From: Pseudanabaena sp. PCC 6802
Lineage (GTDB): Bacteria; Cyanobacteriota; Cyanobacteriia; Pseudanabaenales; Pseudanabaenaceae
Direction of reading: 5' to 3'
DNA: 64,000 nt
Assembly (NCBI RefSeq): GCF_000332175.1
Contig: NZ_KB235910.1
Location: 1 to 64,000 of the forward strand
In this document: positions 5,261 through 59,180 of the stretch, one piece after another
Numbering within the stretch: position 1 is the first letter of the stretch
Layout of the letters: every line of letters begins with the position of its first letter
Made by a program: the position numbers and the translations under genes
Notes under the pieces: generated by a model
Database searches by the model: none
What the model was told of the DNA's origin: nothing
Seen by the model: only the letters and a program-made list of their open reading frames with translations

Positions 5261-5367
5261 TAGCTATAGCCGTAACAGATCGATTATTACAGGGGGGGTG
5301 GGGGCTGCGCCCCCACGCAGGGGTGCAACCCCTGCACCCCATCCTAAGCCTGTCGGCTATAGCTATA
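5261..5367. repeat. Dispersed dual-hairpin element, family A
   Basis: The outer ends TAGCTATAGCC and GGCTATAGCTATA are inverted repeats. Inside are two GC-rich hairpins (TGGGGGCTGCGCCCCCA and GCAGGGGTGCAACCCCTGC). It lies between the kinase and metallopeptidase genes. Confidence 0.85.
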
Positions 5368-6352: not shown

Positions 6353-9127
6353 CTAATTAAGGACGATCTCGGCTTTAACGAGACCGGAATCCCGTTGCAA
6401 GCGGAACCCGACTTTTTCGGCCACTCGCTGCATCGCCTCGTTCTCAGGCAAAATATCCGCAGTGATGCGCTCCAGGCGTTCGTCTCGCCCGACCTGGATC
6501 AATTGGCGCAGCACCTCGGTACCTAATCCTTGCCTTTGAAAGGCATCGCTGACCATCAGTGAGAATTCCGCTTCATTCACGCCATGTAGTTTGCTCAAAC
6601 GGCCTACCGCCAGAATTTCATGCATCTCCGTTTCTGGGTTCTTGTAATCCGCTACCAGGGCCATCTCGCGATCGTAGTCGATAAAGCAGAGGCGCATCAG
6701 CCGTTCGTGGGCAATCCGCTGGCTCAGCTTCATCAAGTGGAAATAGCGAAGATAGACGCTTTGCTCGGATAGGGTTTTATGGAACCGCACGGCAAGCGGT
6801 TCGTCTTCTGGCTGAATCGGTCGAATAGTCACTTTCGTACCGTTATGCAATTTCCATGCCATAACGTATTGGGTGGGATAAGGTCGAATCGCCGATCTGG
6901 GCAAGTCCTCTAAGTTTAGATGTGGCTCGTGGATGACGACGCGGGCATCTAAGGCGAGCAGCGACTCGCGATTCTCTTTCTTTACCGTTGATGCCAGCAA
7001 AGGATTGATATCTATTTCCTTAATCCAGGGCTGCTCTACAACAAGCTGGCTGAAGCGTACCAATAGTTGCTCTAGGGCTGCGAGATCGACGGGCGGGCGA
7101 CCTCGCACGCCTTTAAGCGCGCTGTAGATGAGAGTTTGTTCCAGCATCCGTCTTGCCAGGGTTGTATTGAGAGGAGGCAGAGCGATCGCGCGGTCTTTGA
7201 AAATCTCTACTAATTGACCGCCCGTTCCAAATAAAAGAACTGGGCCAAACTGAGGATCGAGACTGCTGCCAATAATCAATTCATAGCCGCCATCGAGGTC
7301 GATTGTGGGTTGTACGGTAACTCCAGCAAAGTGCTCCAGGCCAACCTTCTGACTGACCGCAGATTTAATAGCTCGGTAAGCCCAACTGACAGCATCGGCA
7401 TCCATGAGATTTAACCGCACGCCTCCCACATCGGTTTTATGGGTAATGGTGTGGGAGTAAAGTTTGAGCGCCACTGGATAGCCGATCGCATTGGCACGAT
7501 CGATTGCCTCAGCTTCGCTAACTGCGATGTAAGTTTTCACGGTGGGAATACCGTAGGCTTCCAGAATTTGCTTGGATTCAAGTTCCGTCAGTAAAGTGCG
7601 TCCTTCCCGATGCGCCCGATCAATTAATTGCTGCGCTAACTGACGATCTGGCAATCCATCGCGATCGTCTATCAGGATCGGCGTTTCGTAGATACCACGC
7701 AGGTTATAGCTGTATTGCCACATATAATTAAACACCCGCGTTGCCGAATCAGGGTAGGCATATGTGGGAATGCCAGCGCTATTGAGAATAGCTTCACCTG
7801 CCATCACCTCAGCCCCACCCATCCAGCTTGCTAAAATCGGCTTGCCCTGGAAGTCTGTAGAGCGATCGCGGACGTAGGATTTTAAATGCTCCGCCGTCTG
7901 GGTGGGATCGGTCATGGACTGGGGCGTGAGAATAACAAGCGTGCCATCGCTGCCCTCATCTTTGACGATCGTTTCCAAAGTTTTGGTAAAGCGCTCCGGC
8001 TCTGCATCTCCTAGAATATCGATGGGATTGCTATGGCTCCAATAGGTGGGTAGTACTCGATTGAGATTGGCGATCGTATCTTCCGAGATTTCTGCCAATT
8101 CACCGCCGGTAGAGATCAGCATATCGGTTGCCAAAACTCCCGGCCCGCCAGCATTGGTAATAATTGTGAGGCGGGGGCCTCTAGGACGCGGTTGTTTTGC
8201 CAATACTTCCGTCATATTGAACAGTTCGGAGACGCGGGTGACTCTAAGTACTCCGCAACGGTGAAAGGCAGCATCCAGTACTTTGTCGCTACCAGTGAGC
8301 GCTCCTGTATGAGAAGCAGATGCTTTTGCTGCCGCTTCAGTACGTCCGGCTTTAATTACGATAATTGGCTTGGTCAACGCCACTTCTCGGGCGGCGGAAA
8401 GGAACGATCTGGCATCCCCAATCGATTCCATGTAGATCGCAATACTTTTAGTGTGCGGATCGTCGCCGAGATAATAGATCAGATCGCCCCACCCCACATC
8501 AAGCATGGAGCCAATTGAAACAAAAGCACTAAATCCCACATTTTCGCGGAAACTCCAATCAAGAATGGACGTACAGAGCGCGCCACTTTGACTGATAAAT
8601 CCCACATTCCCCGGTCGCGCCATGCGCGGGGCAAAAGTGACGTTTAAACCAGTATGGGGATTCATGAGTCCCAAACAATTGGGCCCAACAATTCGCAGCC
8701 TGCCCTTGCGGGCTCGCTCCAGGATTTGATGCTCTAGTTCGATGCCCACTGGCCCGATCTCTTTAAAGCCAGCCGATACGATAATCGCGCTCTTAACCCC
8801 AGCATCGACGCACTCTTGAATAATGTCGGGTACTGTGGCAGCGGGCGTAGCGATCGCTACTAGATCGATAGGATCGGGTATGGCAGCAATCTTGGGATAG
8901 GCTTTGATCCCCATCACGCTACTGTGTTTGGGGTTAACTGGGAAAACAGTGCCGCCAAAGGGACTGCTAATGAGATTCCATAAAAGGGTGCGACCGACGC
9001 TGCCAGGGCGATCGCTAGCACCGATTACAGCCACGGTTTTGGGCGCAAAGATCGAGCTGAGTGGTTGGCGCTCGGAACGCAGAATATCGTAAACCGGATC
9101 GGTCGTGAGTGAGATAGGAGTCAGCAT
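6353..9127 (-). CDS. ADP-forming acyl-CoA synthetase fused to a GNAT acetyltransferase
   Basis: This 924-residue protein has the Pat/YfiQ-like order. A CoA-binding Rossmann domain comes first ([14 protein letters not shown] near residue 35), then succinyl-CoA-ligase-like domains ([25 protein letters not shown]), an ATP-grasp domain in the middle ([17 protein letters not shown]) and a C-terminal GNAT domain (last 150 residues, [13 protein letters not shown]). Relatives acetylate lysines of acetyl-CoA synthetase and other enzymes. The ADP-forming half may sense acyl-CoA or work as a synthetase. Whether the catalytic histidine of true ADP-forming synthetases is kept was not established. The ATG at 9127 is preferred because family members start close to [10 protein letters not shown]. 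It appears monocistronic. Confidence 0.88.
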
Positions 9128-9265
9128 AGAAGTCCGTGTATTTGTGTCTGTATATGTTAGATCTCTAAATCGACTGAAAACTTGAAGCCCTGCTAACTGC
9201 AATTCTCCTGGAATAGCATCTGATGCTACTATATAATGCCAATTCGCAAGCGATCGCGATAGATC

Positions 9266-9354
9266 CTACAGACTAAAGGGGTAACACCCCTTTTGGGGGA
9301 CGCACCCCCTACACCTTATCTGAAACTTCAACTATAAATTAATATAGTCTGTAG
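9266..9354. repeat. Dispersed dual-hairpin element, family C
   Basis: Perfect 10-bp terminal inverted repeats CTACAGACTA (9266-9275) and TAGTCTGTAG (9345-9354) enclose two hairpins, GGGGTAACACCCC and GGGGGACGCACCCCC. The core design is that of families A and B but the ends are different. The rest of 9128-9522 holds no gene I can support. Confidence 0.75.
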
Positions 9355-10152: not shown

Positions 10153-10198
10153 AGGCGAATGTAAAACAACTATAAAGCTGGTAGCTAAAACCTACTAA

Positions 10199-10303
10199 TA
10201 TAGCTATAGCCAACAGGCTTAGGACGGGGTGCAGGGGTTCCACCCCTGCATGGGGGCGCAGCCCCCACACCCCCATGTCCTAACAGATCTGTCTATGGCT
10301 ATA
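10199..10303. repeat. Dispersed dual-hairpin element, family A
   Basis: This is a near-consensus copy. The left end is TATAGCTATAGCC, followed by GCAGGGGTTCCACCCCTGC and TGGGGGCGCAGCCCCCA hairpins and the right end AGATCTGTCTATGGCTATA. Its right end is fused into the last codons of the broken SIMPL copy. Confidence 0.9.
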
Positions 10304-10747
10304 ACTAAACTCTACAGTAACAGAGGTTTGAACTCTTTGTTCGCCACCAATTACAGGCTTTGATGGAGCAGCATCGGCGGCTTGCAGCGCAGCGCGATTA
10401 GTAAATACTGGTTGAATTGGCGAAGCATTATTTACCTGGATGGTGCGGACGGACTGCTCTTTGAGATTGAGCGCGCCGAGCACGGCATCAGCTTGCGCGT
10501 CTTTGACCGCATCTTGCAACGAGGCATTACGGGTTGCACGAATTGCATCTTCGGGTGCAATAAAGCTAATTTGATCGACGCGATTGGCACCAGAGTTAAC
10601 GGCTGCATCCAGGGTGGTGCCCGCTTCGTCGAGGGAGGTGACGAAACTAACGCTGGCTTGTCCCGTAAAACCTACCTGGCGCTGGCGATTATTTTCGAAT
10701 TGTTTTAGTCCTTGCAAAACTTGGATGCGTCGATCGGTATTTTCCAT
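10280..10747 (-). pseudogene. Truncated duplicate of the SIMPL-domain gene
   Basis: The 155-residue frame repeats, almost word for word, the C-terminal two thirds of the SIMPL (DUF541) protein at 20464-21216. Shared stretches include NNRQRQVGFTGQASVSFV and NSGANRVDQISFIAPEDAIR. It lacks the signal peptide and the first half and has lost two codons (DAQADAV against DAQAQADAV). Its first 15 residues are unrelated to the long copy. At the 3' end the intact copy reads AGTTATTAG (stop), whereas here AGTTAT continues into the family A repeat and adds SHRQIC before a new stop. With no export signal it is unlikely to work. Confidence 0.8.
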
Positions 10748-19040: not shown

Positions 19041-19051
19041 ATTATGATATA

Positions 19052-20181
19052 TTGCTCCGGCAATGAAAAAGAAAGCATAGGATAATAGAAGTAAAGGCAC
19101 AAGGAGGTTTGACATGGATAAACCAGATGGCCGACACCTATCGATAGAGACGCAAAATTACCTTCGACAGCAAGCGATCCGGTTGCGAGAACAAGGGAAA
19201 CGAGTATGTGATATTAGTGAGTACCTGGGGATTCATCGTAACACGATTACGGAGTGGTGGTGGGCGTATCAAGATTACGGAGAAGCAGCCCTGTTTCAGC
19301 AGCGACGAGGACGAGAGGTAGGGGAAGGGCGCAGTTTAAGTGCCTCAGAGGAAACAACGATTGAAGCAATGCTGCGGGGACACAGCCCGGAGGAATACCA
19401 GATCGAGAGCGCCTTGTGGAGTAGACGAGCCGTAAAAGCCTTAATCGAGCAAGAATTAGGTGTGGAGATGCCAATCCGCACAGTGGGGAATACCTCAAAC
19501 GATGGGGCTACAGCCCCCAGAAGCCGATCGAACGTGCCTATGAGCAAGACCCCGCTGCCGTGAAACACTGGTTACAGGAAGAATATCCCGCGATTGAGCA
19601 ACGGGCACAAGCAGAAGGTGCCGAAATCGAGTGGGGAGATGAATCGGGACTCAGTTCTGATGAGTATGGGGGGCGAGGTTATGCACCCAAGGGGCATCCC
19701 CCTGAAATTCGTCCTAGTAAACGCGAGCGGACACGGTTGAATTTCATTGCTAGCATCAGTAATCAAGGCACGATTCAATTTATGCTTTACACCTGTACCT
19801 TGACAGCCCCAGTATTTATTGAATTTCTGCAACGGTTGATTGACAAGCGTTCAAGCAAACTGTTTTGGATCGTGGATCGCCATCCCGTCCATCGAGAGCG
19901 CCCCGTGCAGCAATGGTTAGAACAGCACTCCCAGGAGATCGAGTTATTTTATTTGCCTTCCTATGCGCCGCAGTTGAATCCAGTAGAGTATTTCAATGGT
20001 GATGTGAAACAGGGAGTTCACGCCAAACCTCTGACGCGAAACCTGGGTCAATTAAAACATAGATTGCTATCTCAACTGCAGAAATTGCAGAGATTGCCTG
20101 CCCACATTAGGAGTTACTTTAAGCATCCATCTATTATTTATGCTGCTCTATAGATTGCATTCTATTTTATTGCCAAGGCAA
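19052..20181 (+). mobile_element. IS630-family insertion sequence
   Basis: The element has a transposase between imperfect terminal inverted repeats: left TTGCTCCGGCAATGAAAAAG, right (complement) TTGCCTTGGCAATAAAATAG. TA dinucleotides flank both ends (19050-19051 and 20182-20183), the target duplication typical of IS630. The right end abuts a family A dual-hairpin element, the TA being part of that element's own TATAGC end. Length is 1130 bp. Confidence 0.8.
19114..20153 (+). CDS. IS630-type transposase in two frames (-1 shift near 19487)
   Basis: The first frame (19114-19563) has a helix-turn-helix domain (YLGIHRNTITEWWWAYQDYG). The second (19560-20153) has the DDE catalytic domain with Asp in EWGDESGL, Asp in FWIVDRHPVH and Glu in LNPVEYFN. 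At GTGGGGAAT (near 19487) a shift by -1 joins them into one protein reading RTV-GEYLKRWGYSPQKP-IERAYEQDPAAVKHW. This could be programmed -1 slippage on the G-run, known for several IS630 elements, or a lost G. All catalytic residues are present, so the copy may still be active if frameshifting occurs. Confidence 0.82.
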
Positions 20182-20284
20182 TAGCTATAGCCAATAGGCT
20201 TAGGACGGGGTGCAGGGGTTCCACCCCTGCACGGGGGCACAGCCCCCACACCCCCTGTCCTAACAGATCTGTCTAGGGCTATAA
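20182..20284. repeat. Dispersed dual-hairpin element, family A, with IS630 at its edge
   Basis: This is a consensus-like copy from TAGCTATAGCC to GTCTAGGGCTATAA with both hairpins. Its left terminus coincides with the TA target of the IS630 copy. From 20285 to 20463 I see only several HIP1 octamers. Confidence 0.88.
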
Positions 20285-20463: not shown

Positions 20464-21216
20464 CTAATAACTAAACTCTACAGTAACAGAGGTTTGAACT
20501 CTTTGTTCGCCACCAATTACGGGTGTAGGCGGAGCGGCATCGACAGCTTGAAGCGCAGCGCGATTAGTAAATACTGGTTGAATTGGCGAAGCGTTATTTA
20601 CCTGGATGGTGCGGACGGATTGTACTTTGAGATTGAGCGCGCCGAGTACGGCATCAGCTTGTGCTTGTGCGTCTTTGACCGCATCTTGCAACGAAGCATT
20701 ACGGGCGGCGCGGATGGCATCTTCGGGCGCAATAAAGCTTATTTGATCGACGCGATTGGCACCAGAGTTAACGGCTGCATCCATTGTATTGCCCGCTTTG
20801 TCGAGGGAGGTGACGAAACTAACGCTGGCTTGTCCCGTAAAACCTACCTGGCGCTGGCGATTATTTTCGAAGACGTATTTGGGGTTGAGCGTGATATTTG
20901 TAGTTTGCAGTTTCTCGACATTAAGCTCTTGCAGCTTAGCGACGATCGCATTAGCTTTACGGGCAATTTCCACCTGCACATCCTGCGCGGTTTTGGCTTC
21001 TACTTCCACACCAAGCTGGACGCGAGCTTTAGTAGTTTGCACGGGGCGATCGCCCTGTCCGGTTACAACTAAAGTTCTGGCAGGACGAACTTCTTGAGCG
21101 ATCGCCGCAGGTAAATCCATCACGCTAAAACAAATTAATAGAGGCAAGACTGCGATTCTAGCAGCTTTGGCGATACTTTCCATATTTTGCTTTACTGGCT
21201 TCACAGGTCCGTTCAT
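20464..21216 (-). CDS. SIMPL-domain (DUF541) secreted protein
   Basis: This 250-residue exported protein has a signal peptide (ARIAVLPLLICFSVMDLPAAIA, cut near QEVRP) followed by one SIMPL/DUF541 domain: VTGQGDRPVQTTKARVQLGV at the start, INxTLNPKYVFENN in the middle and the usual central VNSGANRVDQISF. Periplasmic members of this family have been linked to oxidative stress, but the biochemical role is unknown. A GTGGGGA site precedes the first ATG, and an ATG 11 codons later is an alternative. A truncated near-identical copy of its last two thirds lies at 10280-10747. Confidence 0.85.
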   Translation of the reverse strand: MNGPVKPVKQNMESIAKAARIAVLPLLICFSVMDLPAAIAQEVRPARTLVVTGQGDRPVQTTKARVQLGVEVEAKTAQDVQVEIARKANAIVAKLQELNVEKLQTTNITLNPKYVFENNRQRQVGFTGQASVSFVTSLDKAGNTMDAAVNSGANRVDQISFIAPEDAIRAARNASLQDAVKDAQAQADAVLGALNLKVQSVRTIQVNNASPIQPVFTNRAALQAVDAAPPTPVIGGEQRVQTSVTVEFSY

Positions 21217-22942: not shown

Positions 22943-23055
22943 TATAGCGGTTTTCAGATGAAAACGAGAAGGGGGTTTGGGGGCAACGCCCCCAAGAAGG
23001 GGTTTCACCCCTTCACCCCGTCAATAAAACCTGTTCTCAATTGAAAAACGCTATA
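22943..23055. repeat. Dispersed dual-hairpin element, family B
   Basis: The ends TATAGCGGTTTTCAGATGAA and TTCTCAATTGAAAAACGCTATA are inverted repeats. The core has GGGGGCAACGCCCCC and GAAGGGGTTTCACCCCTTC hairpins. It follows the CPBP relic. Confidence 0.88.
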
Positions 23056-23063
23056 TTTTCCGG

Positions 23064-32857: not shown

Positions 32858-33178
32858 ATGAATAAAGGCGAATTAGTCGATGCTATCTCCGGTCGTGCGT
32901 CAGTCACCAAGAAAGATATTGAAGCTGTCCTTACAGCAACGCTTGAGGTAATTGTTGATGCAGTCTCATCTGGAGACAGAGTAACGCTGGTTGGTTTTGG
33001 CTCGTTTGAGTCCCGCGATCGCCAAGCACGGGAGGGTCGTAACCCCAAAACTGGTGAAGTAATGACCATTCCTGCCACCAAAGTACCAGCCTTCTCTGCT
33101 GGTAAGCAGTTTAAAGAAAAAGTAGCACCTCCCAAAGCGGATGCAAAAGGCCCAGCCAAGAAAGGCAAAGGTAAATAA
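32858..33178 (+). CDS. hup: DNA-binding protein HU
   Basis: This 106-residue nucleoid protein has the HU/IHF fold: MNKGELVDAIS, the central LVGFGSFESRDRQAREGRNP and the DNA-binding arm KTGEVMTIPATKVPAFSAG. A basic Lys/Pro/Ala tail of about 13 residues (ADAKGPAKKGKGK) extends past the usual 91-94 residues. It bends and packs DNA as a homodimer. It has its own promoter and a strong terminator, so it is monocistronic. Confidence 0.96.
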   Translation: MNKGELVDAISGRASVTKKDIEAVLTATLEVIVDAVSSGDRVTLVGFGSFESRDRQAREGRNPKTGEVMTIPATKVPAFSAGKQFKEKVAPPKADAKGPAKKGKGK

Positions 33179-33247: not shown

Positions 33248-33347
33248 TATAGCGGTTTTCAGATGAAAACGAGAAGGGGGTTTGGGGGCGTTGCCCCCGC
33301 GCAGGGGTGGAACCCCTGCACCCCTGAGCCTATTGGCTATAGCTATA
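33248..33347. repeat. Hybrid dual-hairpin element: B left end, A right end
   Basis: The left part TATAGCGGTTTTCAGATGAA and GGGGGCGTTGCCCCC are family B. The right part GCAGGGGTGGAACCCCTGC and GGCTATAGCTATA are family A. The outer ends no longer form a long inverted repeat. Confidence 0.88.
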
Positions 33348-33379: not shown

Positions 33380-35668
33380 TCAGAGATGATATTTAGCGAT
33401 CGCAAAAGCACTTGTACTTTGCCAGGGAACGCTTTTACGCATCAAATTGAGCGCTAGCAGATCTCGAATACTCTTTACGTCTGCATGGGAAAGTTTATGT
33501 CGCAGGCGATCGCTGTAGGTTGGTTTAGTTTCAGAAGTACCGAACCAGCGATCGATTAAGTCTGGCGTGACATACATCGGTGCGATATTCGTTTCTACCT
33601 CCATCTGTACCGATAAACCGTTTTCAGTAAATCCGCGCTCTAGATCGCCAGCGTCCCAGTTCAACATCGGATCGGATGCTTGCTGATAAATAGCTTCCTC
33701 GGCTTCCACCCAACGGTCGTAGAGTTTAGGCTTGAGATTTACCTCGATCGAATTTGTCTCCAGCAAACGATAGATACGTTGCGTATGGAGAGGGATAGCC
33801 TCATGTAAAGAGATCGCTCCCTCCGGTAGCAGAAATTTAGCCAGTATGGCGATCGCCCCGGATTTATCTGCTTCTCGCATCAGGGCATTGTGACCCACGA
33901 TCCGATCGAACCGGATACCTGTTGCCAATTTAGCGAGCGTATTTGGCAATTCTGCGATCGCGGCAGTGAAGATTCTGGGTCGCGTTAATTCTGGTAAAGC
34001 GGAGGCGCGATCGCGGAGAGTATCTGCTTCTGCCTCGCGATAGGTGCAGGCATAGACCCCACCTTCTGGTACCTGGCGTATCGCTTCCCATGTCAGTAGA
34101 CCGCTACCCGCATTCAAATCCAGGACAACATGATGGCGCTGCAATTTGGCTCGCTCGAACAGGCGATCGCGGACGGCAGCTAATTTCTCACCCGTACTTT
34201 CAATTGTACGTTTTAGCCAGCGTTCCACCGCCGCATTGGGGGGAGAAAGGGTTAATCCTTCTGGTAGATCTTCTTTTACGTTATCCGCAAATGTCGCTAA
34301 TTGTGCTTCCCGCTGTCGCGCGACCCGATCGGCGATTTGTGCTTCGGCACCGCGATCGGATGGTTGATAGAAAACTTGTCCTTGCAGGCTGGCAGGTAAA
34401 TATTGTTGCGCCACCCAGTGGTCGCGATAGGCATGGGGATAGAGATAGCCCGCTCCGTGTCCGAATCCCTGCCGATCGCGACTGGCATCCTTGAGAGGAT
34501 TCGGAATATCTGCCTGCTGTTCCTTCTCTACGATCGCGATCGCGTCGAAAAACCCCATCACGCTGTTGGATTTTGGTGCGTTTGCCAGATAGAGCGTCGC
34601 TTGGGCGAGGTGATAGCGCCCTTCCGGTAGTCCCACGCGATCGAATGCCTCAGCGCAGGCATTCACGACAACTACAGCCTGCGGATCGGCCAATCCCACA
34701 TCCTCGCTGGCGAGAATCAGCATCCGCCGAAAGATAAAATGCGGATCTTCACCTGCATAGGTCATGCGTGCCAACCAATAGAGTGCCGCATCGGGATCGG
34801 AGCCGCGCAAACTTTTGATGAAGGCACTAATCGTATCGAAATGAGCGTCACCTTCTTTATCGTAGAGAACTGCCCGCCGCTGAATCGATTCTTCCGCTAC
34901 TTCTAACGTGATGCGAACAACTCCGGTGGCATCGGATGGCGTGGTCTCCACCGCTAGCTCCAGGGCATTGAGCAGCGCTCTGGCATCACCATTGGCAATA
35001 TTAACCAGATGCTCTAGCGCGTTGGATTCCAGATCGATTTGTTTCTGACCGTAGCCGCGCTCTGGATCGGAGAGTGCCGTCGCGGCAACCCGCCGCAGAT
35101 CCTCTAGATCGAGTGGCTTCAGTTGAAACAGCCGCGATCTGCTCACCAGAGCCTTATTCACTTCAAAAAAGGGATTTTCCGTCGTTGCTCCAATCAGAAC
35201 GATCGTGCCATTCTCTACCCAGGGCAGCAATGCATCTTGCTGAGCTTTATTAAATCGATGCACCTCATCGACAAATAGAATGGTGCGGCGACTGTAAACG
35301 CCTTGCTGTTCCTGAGCCGCCTCGATCGCGGCGCGAATCTCCTTTACCCCTGACAAGACAGCGTTAATGGCGATGAAATGGGCGTGGGTGGTATTGGCAA
35401 TAATCCTCGCCAGCGTGGTTTTGCCCGTACCGGGCGGCCCGTAGAAAATTAGCGACGATAGGCGATCCGCCTGGATGGCGCGGCGGAGCAATCTTCCCGC
35501 ACCCAGAATATGCGACTGTCCGATAAAATCGTCCAGCGATCGCGGGCGCATCCGCGCTGCTAGCGGCGCTTCCTGTTCGGTTAATCGTTGCCGATTTTGC
35601 TCGAATAAATCCATTGGGTTAGGGCGATCTGCGGTCAGCCTGAGTACACGATCGGAAAGGATGGACAT
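33380..35668 (-). CDS. rarA: RarA/MgsA-type AAA ATPase fused to a methyltransferase-like domain
   Basis: This protein has 762 residues, against about 430-450 for ordinary RarA. The first part is a clamp-loader-like ATPase of the replication-fork and recombination family: RPRSLDDFIGQ, Walker A GPPGTGKT (77-84), Walker B LFVDEVHRFN, sensor 1 GATTENPFF and the RarA tetramerisation region (GSDPDAALYWLARM, ASEDVGLADP). After about residue 480 an extra domain contains a SAM-binding-like motif VVLDLNAGSGLLTWEA, as in class I methyltransferases, and a 230-residue continuation with no known label. The start at 35668 has AAGG ahead; M19 (MDLFEQNRQ) matches the usual family start. It lies 8 bases after the coiled-coil/BRCT gene. 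Confidence 0.88.
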   Translation of the reverse strand: MSILSDRVLRLTADRPNPMDLFEQNRQRLTEQEAPLAARMRPRSLDDFIGQSHILGAGRLLRRAIQADRLSSLIFYGPPGTGKTTLARIIANTTHAHFIAINAVLSGVKEIRAAIEAAQEQQGVYSRRTILFVDEVHRFNKAQQDALLPWVENGTIVLIGATTENPFFEVNKALVSRSRLFQLKPLDLEDLRRVAATALSDPERGYGQKQIDLESNALEHLVNIANGDARALLNALELAVETTPSDATGVVRITLEVAEESIQRRAVLYDKEGDAHFDTISAFIKSLRGSDPDAALYWLARMTYAGEDPHFIFRRMLILASEDVGLADPQAVVVVNACAEAFDRVGLPEGRYHLAQATLYLANAPKSNSVMGFFDAIAIVEKEQQADIPNPLKDASRDRQGFGHGAGYLYPHAYRDHWVAQQYLPASLQGQVFYQPSDRGAEAQIADRVARQREAQLATFADNVKEDLPEGLTLSPPNAAVERWLKRTIESTGEKLAAVRDRLFERAKLQRHHVVLDLNAGSGLLTWEAIRQVPEGGVYACTYREAEADTLRDRASALPELTRPRIFTAAIAELPNTLAKLATGIRFDRIVGHNALMREADKSGAIAILAKFLLPEGAISLHEAIPLHTQRIYRLLETNSIEVNLKPKLYDRWVEAEEAIYQQASDPMLNWDAGDLERGFTENGLSVQMEVETNIAPMYVTPDLIDRWFGTSETKPTYSDRLRHKLSHADVKSIRDLLALNLMRKSVPWQSTSAFAIAKYHL

Positions 35669-38433: not shown

Positions 38434-38546
38434 TATAGCGGTTTTCATTTGAGAACGGGTTTTATTTTTGGGGTGAAGGGGTTCCACCCCTTCTTGGGGG
38501 CAACGCCCCCAAACCCCCTACTCTTTCCGATCTGAAAGCCGCTATA
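38434..38546. repeat. Dispersed dual-hairpin element, family B (inverted)
   Basis: The ends TATAGCGGTTTTCATTTGAG and ATCTGAAAGCCGCTATA are inverted repeats. Core hairpins are GAAGGGGTTCCACCCCTTC and GGGGGCAACGCCCCC, in the opposite order to the copy at 22943. Confidence 0.88.
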
Positions 38547-38675: not shown

Positions 38676-38789
38676 CATAGCGGTTTTCAATTTAAGAACA
38701 GGTCTTATGTTTGGGGTGAAGTGGGTTCACCCCTTCTTGGGGGCAACGCCCCCAAACCCCCTACTCTTTCCGATCTGAAAACCGCTATA
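38676..38789. repeat. Dispersed dual-hairpin element, family B, overlapping the end of coaE
   Basis: This is a second family B copy 130 bp from the first and in the same orientation. Its right 85 bases are inside the coaE reading frame and provide the last 28 or so codons and the stop. Between the two copies (38547-38675) no gene is seen. Confidence 0.88.
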
Positions 38790-42024: not shown

Positions 42025-42137
42025 AATTGCGGTTTTCAGATGAAAACGAGAAGGGGGGTTGGGGGCGTTGCCCCCAAAAAGGGGTTCCACCCCTTCACCC
42101 CGTCAATAAAACCTGTTCTCAATTGAAAAACGCTATA
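42025..42137. repeat. Dispersed dual-hairpin element, family B
   Basis: The left end is mutated to TAATTGCGGTTTTCAGATGA; the right end TTGAAAAACGCTATA is intact. Core hairpins are GGGGGCGTTGCCCCC and AAGGGGTTCCACCCCTT. It occupies most of the 320-bp gap between DUF58 and Uma2. Confidence 0.85.
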
Positions 42138-42242
42138 TCTAATAGTGGAAGAGCGATCGCAAAACTACTTCTCAGCCTAACTAAAGGAGGTGGCAATATT
42201 TTAGATAATATAAATAAAGTTGGACTTGCGAGGTGTCGAACC

Positions 42243-43458: not shown

Positions 43459-43567
43459 TATAGCCGTATGCAGATCTGTTAGGACAGGGGGTGTGGGGGC
43501 TACGCCCCCCCGCAGGGGTTTCACCCCTGCACCCCGTCCTAAGCCTGTTGGATATGGCTTCTATAGC
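43459..43567. repeat. Dispersed dual-hairpin element, family A (inverted)
   Basis: The ends are TATAGCCGTATGCAGATCTG and GTTGGATATGGCTTCTATAGC. Core hairpins are TGGGGGCTACGCCCCC and GCAGGGGTTTCACCCCTGC. It lies between the membrane protein and the P450. Confidence 0.88.
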
Positions 43568-43649
43568 AATAACCAAACAGGTTTGAGATGTAATTATGAG
43601 GGTAAAACCCCAGCGCCTCGTTCCGAACAATCTTTTAGTTACTACGAGA

Positions 43650-45020: not shown

Positions 45021-45045
45021 CTTTGCTTCTGATTTGAACCGATCG

Positions 45046-45150
45046 CTATAGCTATAGCCAACAGGCTTAGGACGGGGTGCAGGGGTGAAACCCCTGCGTG
45101 GGGGCGCAGCCCCCACCCCCCCTGTCCTAACAGATCTGTCTATGGCTATA
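45046..45150. repeat. Dispersed dual-hairpin element, family A
   Basis: The left end is CTATAGCTATAGCCAACAGG and the right end AGATCTGTCTATGGCTATA. Both hairpins are perfect (GCAGGGGTGAAACCCCTGC). It lies between the P450 and the lipid kinase, 7 bases past the latter's stop. Confidence 0.9.
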
Positions 45151-45156
45151 TCTACT

Positions 45157-49522: not shown

Positions 49523-49627
49523 TATAGCTTTAGACAGATTATTAGTACAGGGGGTGTGGGGGCTGCGCCCCCACCGCAGGGGTTCTACCCCTGCACCCCG
49601 TCCTAAGTCTGTTGGCTATAGCTATAA
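49523..49627. repeat. Dispersed dual-hairpin element, family A (inverted)
   Basis: The left end is TATAGCTTTAGACAGATTAT and the right end TCTGTTGGCTATAGCTATA. Core hairpins are GGGGGCTGCGCCCCC and GCAGGGGTTCTACCCCTGC. It lies in the 5' region of the sigma factor gene. Confidence 0.88.
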
Positions 49628-53530: not shown

Positions 53531-53612
53531 ATTTACGCTCGCCCTTATGCAACCGAATCTAGCGCCATGCTGGTTCGATTTCTTGCTAAGGACTGAATTC
53601 GCTCCGTAAAGA

Positions 53613-53716
53613 TATAGCTATAGCCAACAGGTTTAGGACGGGGTGCAGGGGTTCCACCCCTGCGTGGGGGCTGCGCCCCCACACCCCCATGTCCTAACAG
53701 ATCTGTCTATGGCTGT
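53613..53716. repeat. Dispersed dual-hairpin element, family A
   Basis: This consensus-like copy runs from TATAGCTATAGCCAACAGG to GATCTGTCTATGGCTGTT with hairpins GCAGGGGTTCCACCCCTGC and GGGGGCTGCGCCCCC. It sits between ctaB and the CorC-like gene. Confidence 0.9.
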
Positions 53717-53815
53717 TAAACTAAGATCGACAAAGCGAGCCGATATGGTTATCGCTGCCTTAATGGCGATCGTGCAGGTATGCTAGAAACATTGATTTCT
53801 GCTGGATAACCAAAC

Positions 53816-59043: not shown

Positions 59044-59074
59044 TTTTCTGTTGTAATTTTAAGCACAAGTGCTT

Positions 59075-59180
59075 ATATAGCTATAGCCAACAGGCTGAGG
59101 ACGGGGTGCAGGGGTTCCACCCCTGCGTGGGGGCGCAGCCCCCACACCCCCATGTCCTAACAGATCTGTCTATGGCTATA
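59075..59180. repeat. Dispersed dual-hairpin element, family A
   Basis: This copy runs from TATAGCTATAGCCAACAGG to AGATCTGTCTATGGCTATA with two perfect hairpins. It begins 31 bases beyond the NtcA site on the side away from ntcA. The following stretch 59181-59506 holds no gene I can support. Confidence 0.9.

Follow-up and report, generated by a model that had tools for sequence, protein, structure and literature searches.

Targeting and duplication of the dinucleotide TA, the defining behaviour of IS630/Tc1 elements, has been demonstrated for the cyanobacterial insertion sequence ISY100 (PMC2170065). Among the MITEs of the IS630/Tc1-mariner family is the cyanobacterial Nezha, cited in PMC10969869. 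Abundant intergenic palindromes are also known from the REP/BIME and REPIN systems (PMC3116915, PMC2817692). Template switching at hairpins leaves a footprint, a loop inverted between intact stems, described also for bacterial rRNA (PMC8794818).

Here we describe a 100-bp element located at positions 33248-33347 of a 64,000-nucleotide stretch of the Pseudanabaena sp. PCC 6802 genome (the whole stretch is referred to below as the window). The element is a genuine cross between two families of tiny transposons, A and B, which have unrelated arms around a nearly identical GC-rich two-hairpin core.

Results

The boundaries of the element are exact. It reads TATAGCGG...GGCTATAGCTATA and is composed, in this order, of TATAGCGGTTTTCAGATGAAAACGAGAA, GGGGGTTT, hairpin 1, the linker GCGC, hairpin 2, GCACCCC and TGAGCCTATTGGCTATAGCTATA. 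Its parts and the genes on either side are as follows:

33248..33347, + strand: B-A hybrid miniature element with TA...TA outer ends, 100 bp
33248..33275, + strand: family B left arm TATAGCGGTTTTCAGATGAAAACGAGAA, whose outer portion corresponds to an IS630 terminal repeat (C5:1425189-1426210)
33284..33298, + strand: core hairpin 1, GGGGGC-GTT-GCCCCC, with a B-type loop; the B to A switch lies in the 3′ arm, at about 33293-33299
33303..33317, + strand: core hairpin 2, AGGGGT-GGA-ACCCCT, with A-type GC...GC pairs on its flanks
33325..33347, + strand: family A right arm TGAGCCTATTGGCTATAGCTATA, about 4 bp below the usual length
32858..33178, + strand: intact gene of an HU-type DNA-binding protein (PF00216), upstream neighbour
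33380..35668, − strand: intact gene of a RarA/MgsA-type AAA+ ATPase (PF12002), convergent, downstream neighbour

The left arm scored 1.00 as B versus 0.25 as A and the right arm 0.75 as A versus 0.24 as B, with the 99th percentile of random genome segments at 0.40-0.41. Compared column by column, the element agrees with family B up to and including the hairpin 1 loop, and with family A once the linker begins. The initial annotation had assigned the left half to family B and the right half to family A, and had stated that the two families share a two-hairpin plan; the arm scores and the column-by-column letters bear out the assignment, and the common plan was confirmed as well. When the element was used as a query, about 38 copies matched positions 1-77 only and one other matched over the full length, at 90%. 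Other B-A hybrids are 103-104 bp long, the window hybrid missing about 4 bp of its right arm. Its ends share TATAGC only and do not form matching terminal inverted repeats. Except for a 5-bp outer stem, each arm folds back on itself. The whole-element stem formed by A (z -7.5) and by B (z -6.4) is absent from the folded hybrid; folding of the core is still strong (z -5.3). No curated Rfam model matched over the element. The HU-type gene upstream of the hybrid has a terminator-like hairpin.

The window also houses the following copies of the two families:

22944..23056, + strand: family B (parent type)
42026..42138, + strand: family B
38442..38546, − strand: family B subtype 2, direct neighbour of the next copy
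38685..38789, − strand: family B subtype 2, 243 bp from the preceding copy, in direct orientation
10195..10303, − strand: family A (parent type)
20176..20284, − strand: family A, with an IS630 (about 19050-20183) inserted at its right-end TA
45043..45151, − strand: family A
53609..53717, − strand: family A
59072..59180, − strand: family A
5276..5364, + strand: family A
43460..43572, + strand: family A
49535..49623, + strand: family A-like

At about 9254-9330 lies an element of yet another type; its core is related, and its perfect short ends, CTACAGACTA, do not resemble those of families A-E. We also observed that regions of a SIMPL (DUF541) gene are duplicated at 10301-10699 and 20467-20871 of the window (~92% alike), each adjoining a family A element.

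A genome-wide count of A, B and hybrid types had been proposed in the initial annotation, which had also held that an independent, frequent family with the B-A arrangement and inverted ends of its own would speak against a hybrid. We carried out the count in two ways. A relaxed search for the two-hairpin core was run on a sample of 2.46 Mb of the 5.62-Mb genome; 0.8 Mb of this sample was picked around B hits, and unbiased rates were drawn from the remaining 1.6 Mb. Strict-end patterns were searched for in the whole genome. The 2.46 Mb contained 275 core-bearing elements, among them 94 A-A, 119 B-B, 10 C-C, 10 D-D and 9 E-E elements and eight hybrids (four B-A, one A-B, one A-E and two B-E); the remaining elements have one recognised end or none, and some copies are truncated (classes marked "?"). 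In the unbiased 1.6 Mb, 125 of the 136 elements were two-ended, and five of these 125 were hybrids. The strict-end patterns retrieved 74 A>A, 96 B>B and one A>B copy from the whole genome, together with two B>A copies whose junctions differ; control searches with reversed patterns gave zero. Given these strict-end counts, the B-A arrangement is rare and does not constitute a family of its own. No two of the eight hybrids are copies of one another.

The A-B hybrid at L180:7196-7308 overlaps the 3′ end of a histidine-kinase-like open reading frame that ends at 7281, so that the stop codon is supplied by the element.

Families A and B are TA-duplicating, non-autonomous MITEs of the IS630/Tc1 type. 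Duplication of TA by family B can be seen when the copy at L223:4710 is compared with an empty site in L213 (99% identical, with one TA), and also at L208:10364; for family A it can be seen at L028:16748, compared with the empty site in L040. The target duplications that the initial annotation had proposed looking for were thus found for both parent families, and a search with joined flanks found no empty site for a hybrid. A 1022-bp IS630 (C5:1425189-1426210; L029:10188-11209) carries 25-bp perfect terminal repeats of B type, TATAGCGGTTTTCAGATGAGAACAG, and a transposase with a DDE_3 domain (E 4.5e-33) split over two frames. Neither the IS630 copies nor the sampled DNA included an insertion sequence with family A ends. 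The right end of family A is TA-rich (TATAGCTATA), and two of 11 copies of another IS630 are located at an A right-end TA, from which it follows that A ends are used as targets. The right flank that the L190 hybrid has in common with the A copy at 20176 of the window was considered as a recombination signature and rejected, because the same IS630 was inserted twice at an A right-end TA. One 1135-bp IS630 copy (L161, C5:378155-378244) has an insert of ~88 bp between short direct repeats TCAATTAAAAC.

Family B has left and right subtypes that can use the same ends. All four combinations of them occur, yet the subtypes remain associated (odds ratio 7.5, p 1.5e-4). The ends of this family are therefore only partly reshuffled.

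All eight hybrids are mosaics that pass from the left family to the right family inside the core, with a few isolated exceptions among the sites. The change occurs in the G run in the L014 and L304 hybrids, in the 3′ arm of hairpin 1 in the window hybrid, in the linker or start of hairpin 2 in L190, and in hairpin 2 in L016, L212 and both L180 copies. The proposal that exchange took place in the shared core is well supported by these eight switches at several different places. Directly outside AGGGGT/ACCCCT, 70 of 71 A copies have a C-G pair and 74 of 77 B copies an A-T pair; in the two hybrids that change over from A within hairpin 2, this position holds an unpaired C.T.

The loop of hairpin 2 occurs in two orientations at about equal frequency (GGA/GAA/AGA in 76 copies, TCC/TTC/TCT in 69). 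Among pairs of copies with differing loops, 29% are exact reverse complements, versus 6.5% (maximum 7.6%) in 2000 column shuffles. Eleven B copies that are identical over ~90 bases outside the loops have six different hairpin 2 loops and both orientations of hairpin 1. When the loops are folded on TCC, 45 single-step variants are C>T and four are others, which suggests deamination of loops extruded as single strands. Stem diversity was 0.002, a value partly forced by a search pattern that required stems, and the fair comparison is that of loops with arms. The loops of the core hairpins (e.g., at window position 22994 and L048:3968) are thus hypervariable: they are inverted in about half of the copies, and nearly all other changes are C>T, even where the remainder of the element is identical.

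Combined with other ends, the core is present in 20 of 388 sampled cyanobacterial genomes, with zero matches in the reversed-pattern control, and is common to at least six end families. In L235-L264, which represent at least six cyanobacterial families, the core lies between several unrelated types of end.

Elements of families A, B, C and E can carry a hairpin insert of 45 bp, AGGCAGGGCGGTCTTGGGGGTTCCCCGCTAGAGCCACTGCCGTG, whose position in hairpin 2 (AGGGG^T) is the same to the base. It is present in 37 of the 136 unbiased elements, with family-specific letters preserved on either side; within family B, its presence shows no linkage to the subtype of the arms. Sites include L011:14661-14817 and several dozen more (e.g., in L013, L015, L022, L028, L182 and L186); no clear free copy was found. 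The 45-bp hairpin appears to be a recurrent site-specific insertion. Relatives of the insert, GGCAGCGCGGTCTTGGGGGTTTCCCCCATGAGCGACTGCC, occur in other contexts in other cyanobacterial genomes (L265-L283), some with further loop inserts. A literature search retrieved no paper matching the letters of the core or of the insert.

Discussion

How could ends of two families have become joined around one core? We hold with moderate confidence that the hybrid is a recombinant MITE made by local collapse of neighbouring or nested copies through slippage of the template from core to core. TA is the insertion site of these elements and is frequent in the right end of A, so that one element sometimes lands in or next to the end of another; this yields head-to-tail pairs (e.g., A|B or B|E) that have one TA in common, their cores about 100-150 bp apart. 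During replication through such a pair, the polymerase or the nascent strand may slip from the first strong-hairpin core to the second. This would remove the inner half of each element and leave, at the same locus, the left arm of the first element, one core and the right arm of the second. The two ends of such a product would usually be recognised by no single transposase, and it would remain a singleton.

Candidate precursors are present in this genome. Direct pairs within 400 bp include A|B pairs with cores 93, 100 and 335 bp apart, B|A pairs at 144 and 232 bp, a B|E pair at 133 bp, a C|E pair at 125 bp and a C|C pair at 101 bp. A|B pairs were seen in L208, L038 and L022, B|A pairs in L030 and L021, the B|E pair, with one TA common to its two elements, in L028, and the C|E pair in L200. 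The pairs in L038, L208, L028 and L200 are fused at a common TA or TATAGC. Fused or close direct pairs are thus known for three of the four hybrid classes, and deletion from core to core in such pairs would yield exactly the hybrid classes B-A, A-B and B-E. The E copy of the B|E pair carries the 45-bp insert, as do both B-E hybrids. Outside the left arm of the A-E hybrid lies an apparent stub of an E left end (ATGCCAATT-TA, compared with ATACCAATT-TA), as expected if A had inserted in the terminal repeat of E before the collapse. That slippage acts on the core is shown by a tandem core duplication with a 72-bp repeat in L020. The loop inversions place template switching in the core and, together with its folding energy (z about -5 to -7), fit switching at hairpins. 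Several observations count against collapse. The window hybrid has no stub of a second element, the sample contains no A|E pair, and the E-left stub of the A-E hybrid is short (eight of nine letters plus TA). B-A hybrids also outnumber A-B hybrids 4:1, though A|B pairs are at least as numerous as B|A pairs; these numbers are too small to weigh. The state of the hybrid loci before collapse is not visible, as the genomes searched include no other member of this genus.

A different route would be ectopic exchange, with distant A and B copies recombining or switching template in trans through the core, so that the left flank of one locus is joined to the right flank of another or half of a copy is converted. 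The cores are nearly identical over ~50 bp, several hundred copies are likely per genome (judging from the 136 in 1.6 Mb), and the four combinations of B subtypes agree with such exchange; the HU and RarA genes, not found adjacent in the relatives fetched, leave room for rearrangement at the window locus. However, the genes flanking the window hybrid are intact, close direct pairs match three hybrid classes and the remnant of E next to the A-E hybrid suggests that the event was local, while a core of ~50 bp is short for RecA-dependent exchange. We consider ectopic exchange possible but rather doubtful, and local collapse of neighbouring copies is probably the best mechanism, ahead of exchange between distant ones.

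The remaining explanations are far less probable. There are four B-A copies, one of them 90% alike to the window element over its full length, as might be expected of an independent mobile family with its own ends; yet two strict copies stand against 74 and 96, the four copies switch at three different places, their ends share TATAGC with no whole-element stem such as A and B have, and A-B, A-E and B-E forms exist too, all of which makes such a family very unlikely. It is just as improbable that a transposase paired a B left end with an A right end close by: both ends begin with TATAGC, but aberrant transposition would retain everything between the ends and cannot fuse two cores, whereas all eight switches lie inside the core and none of the eight hybrids has two cores. 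Chance resemblance or mis-assignment of degenerate copies might be suspected from the truncated "?" classes; with assigned arm scores of 0.71-1.00 in the hybrids, alternative-family scores of 0.17-0.36 and the random 99th percentile lying between them, it can practically be dismissed.

Under collapse of neighbouring copies, the genome has both candidate precursors (fused pairs) and products (hybrids), and the latter provide a small natural record of recombination between transposon pieces in bacteria. The suggestion that the hybrid tells how the families diversify is weakly supported between families, because the A/B/E hybrids are all singletons whose two ends do not match, and no hybrid has multiplied. 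Only within family B do subtypes occur in all possible pairings of left and right. Hybrids are rare one-off scars, not the start of new families.

The core itself is more surprising, with its at least six end families, both loop orientations, C>T changes and nested 45-bp hairpin. The loop data suggest genuine extrusion of these hairpins in vivo, something difficult to demonstrate by direct means. Why the core, not the ends, persists in unrelated mobile families across cyanobacteria is a question that these data raise. Very tentatively, and against our own expectation, one could imagine the core as a cyanobacteria-wide exchange cassette, whose extruded hairpins have loops that invert and deaminate, which would host the 45-bp hairpin as a site-specific mobile element and at which repeated template switching would join unrelated ends, new families arising as a lasting core captures new ends.

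Compared with known systems, the elements resemble REP/BIME and REPIN (PMC3116915, PMC2817692) in being abundant intergenic palindromes; unlike these and REP/RAYT palindromes, among which they do not qualify, they have terminal inverted repeats and TA duplications. As in template-switch mutations (PMC8794818), loops are inverted between intact stems, but here the inversion affects the loops in roughly half the copies of a mobile element, and switches also join two elements. With the MITEs of IS630/Tc1-mariner type they share small size, lack of a gene, terminal inverted repeats and TA duplication, and the genome has an IS630 with the same terminal repeats as family B. They differ from the known MITEs of this type in that several families with unrelated ends have one common two-hairpin core, and in that the two ends of the hybrid come from different families. 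Small dispersed repeats of Nostoc are reportedly short hairpin repeats nested at fixed sites of minitransposons. The 45-bp insert is similar to these in resembling a hairpin repeat of other cyanobacterial genomes; unlike them, it is ~45 nt long and sits, in this genome, only at one base of hairpin 2 of the MITEs described here.
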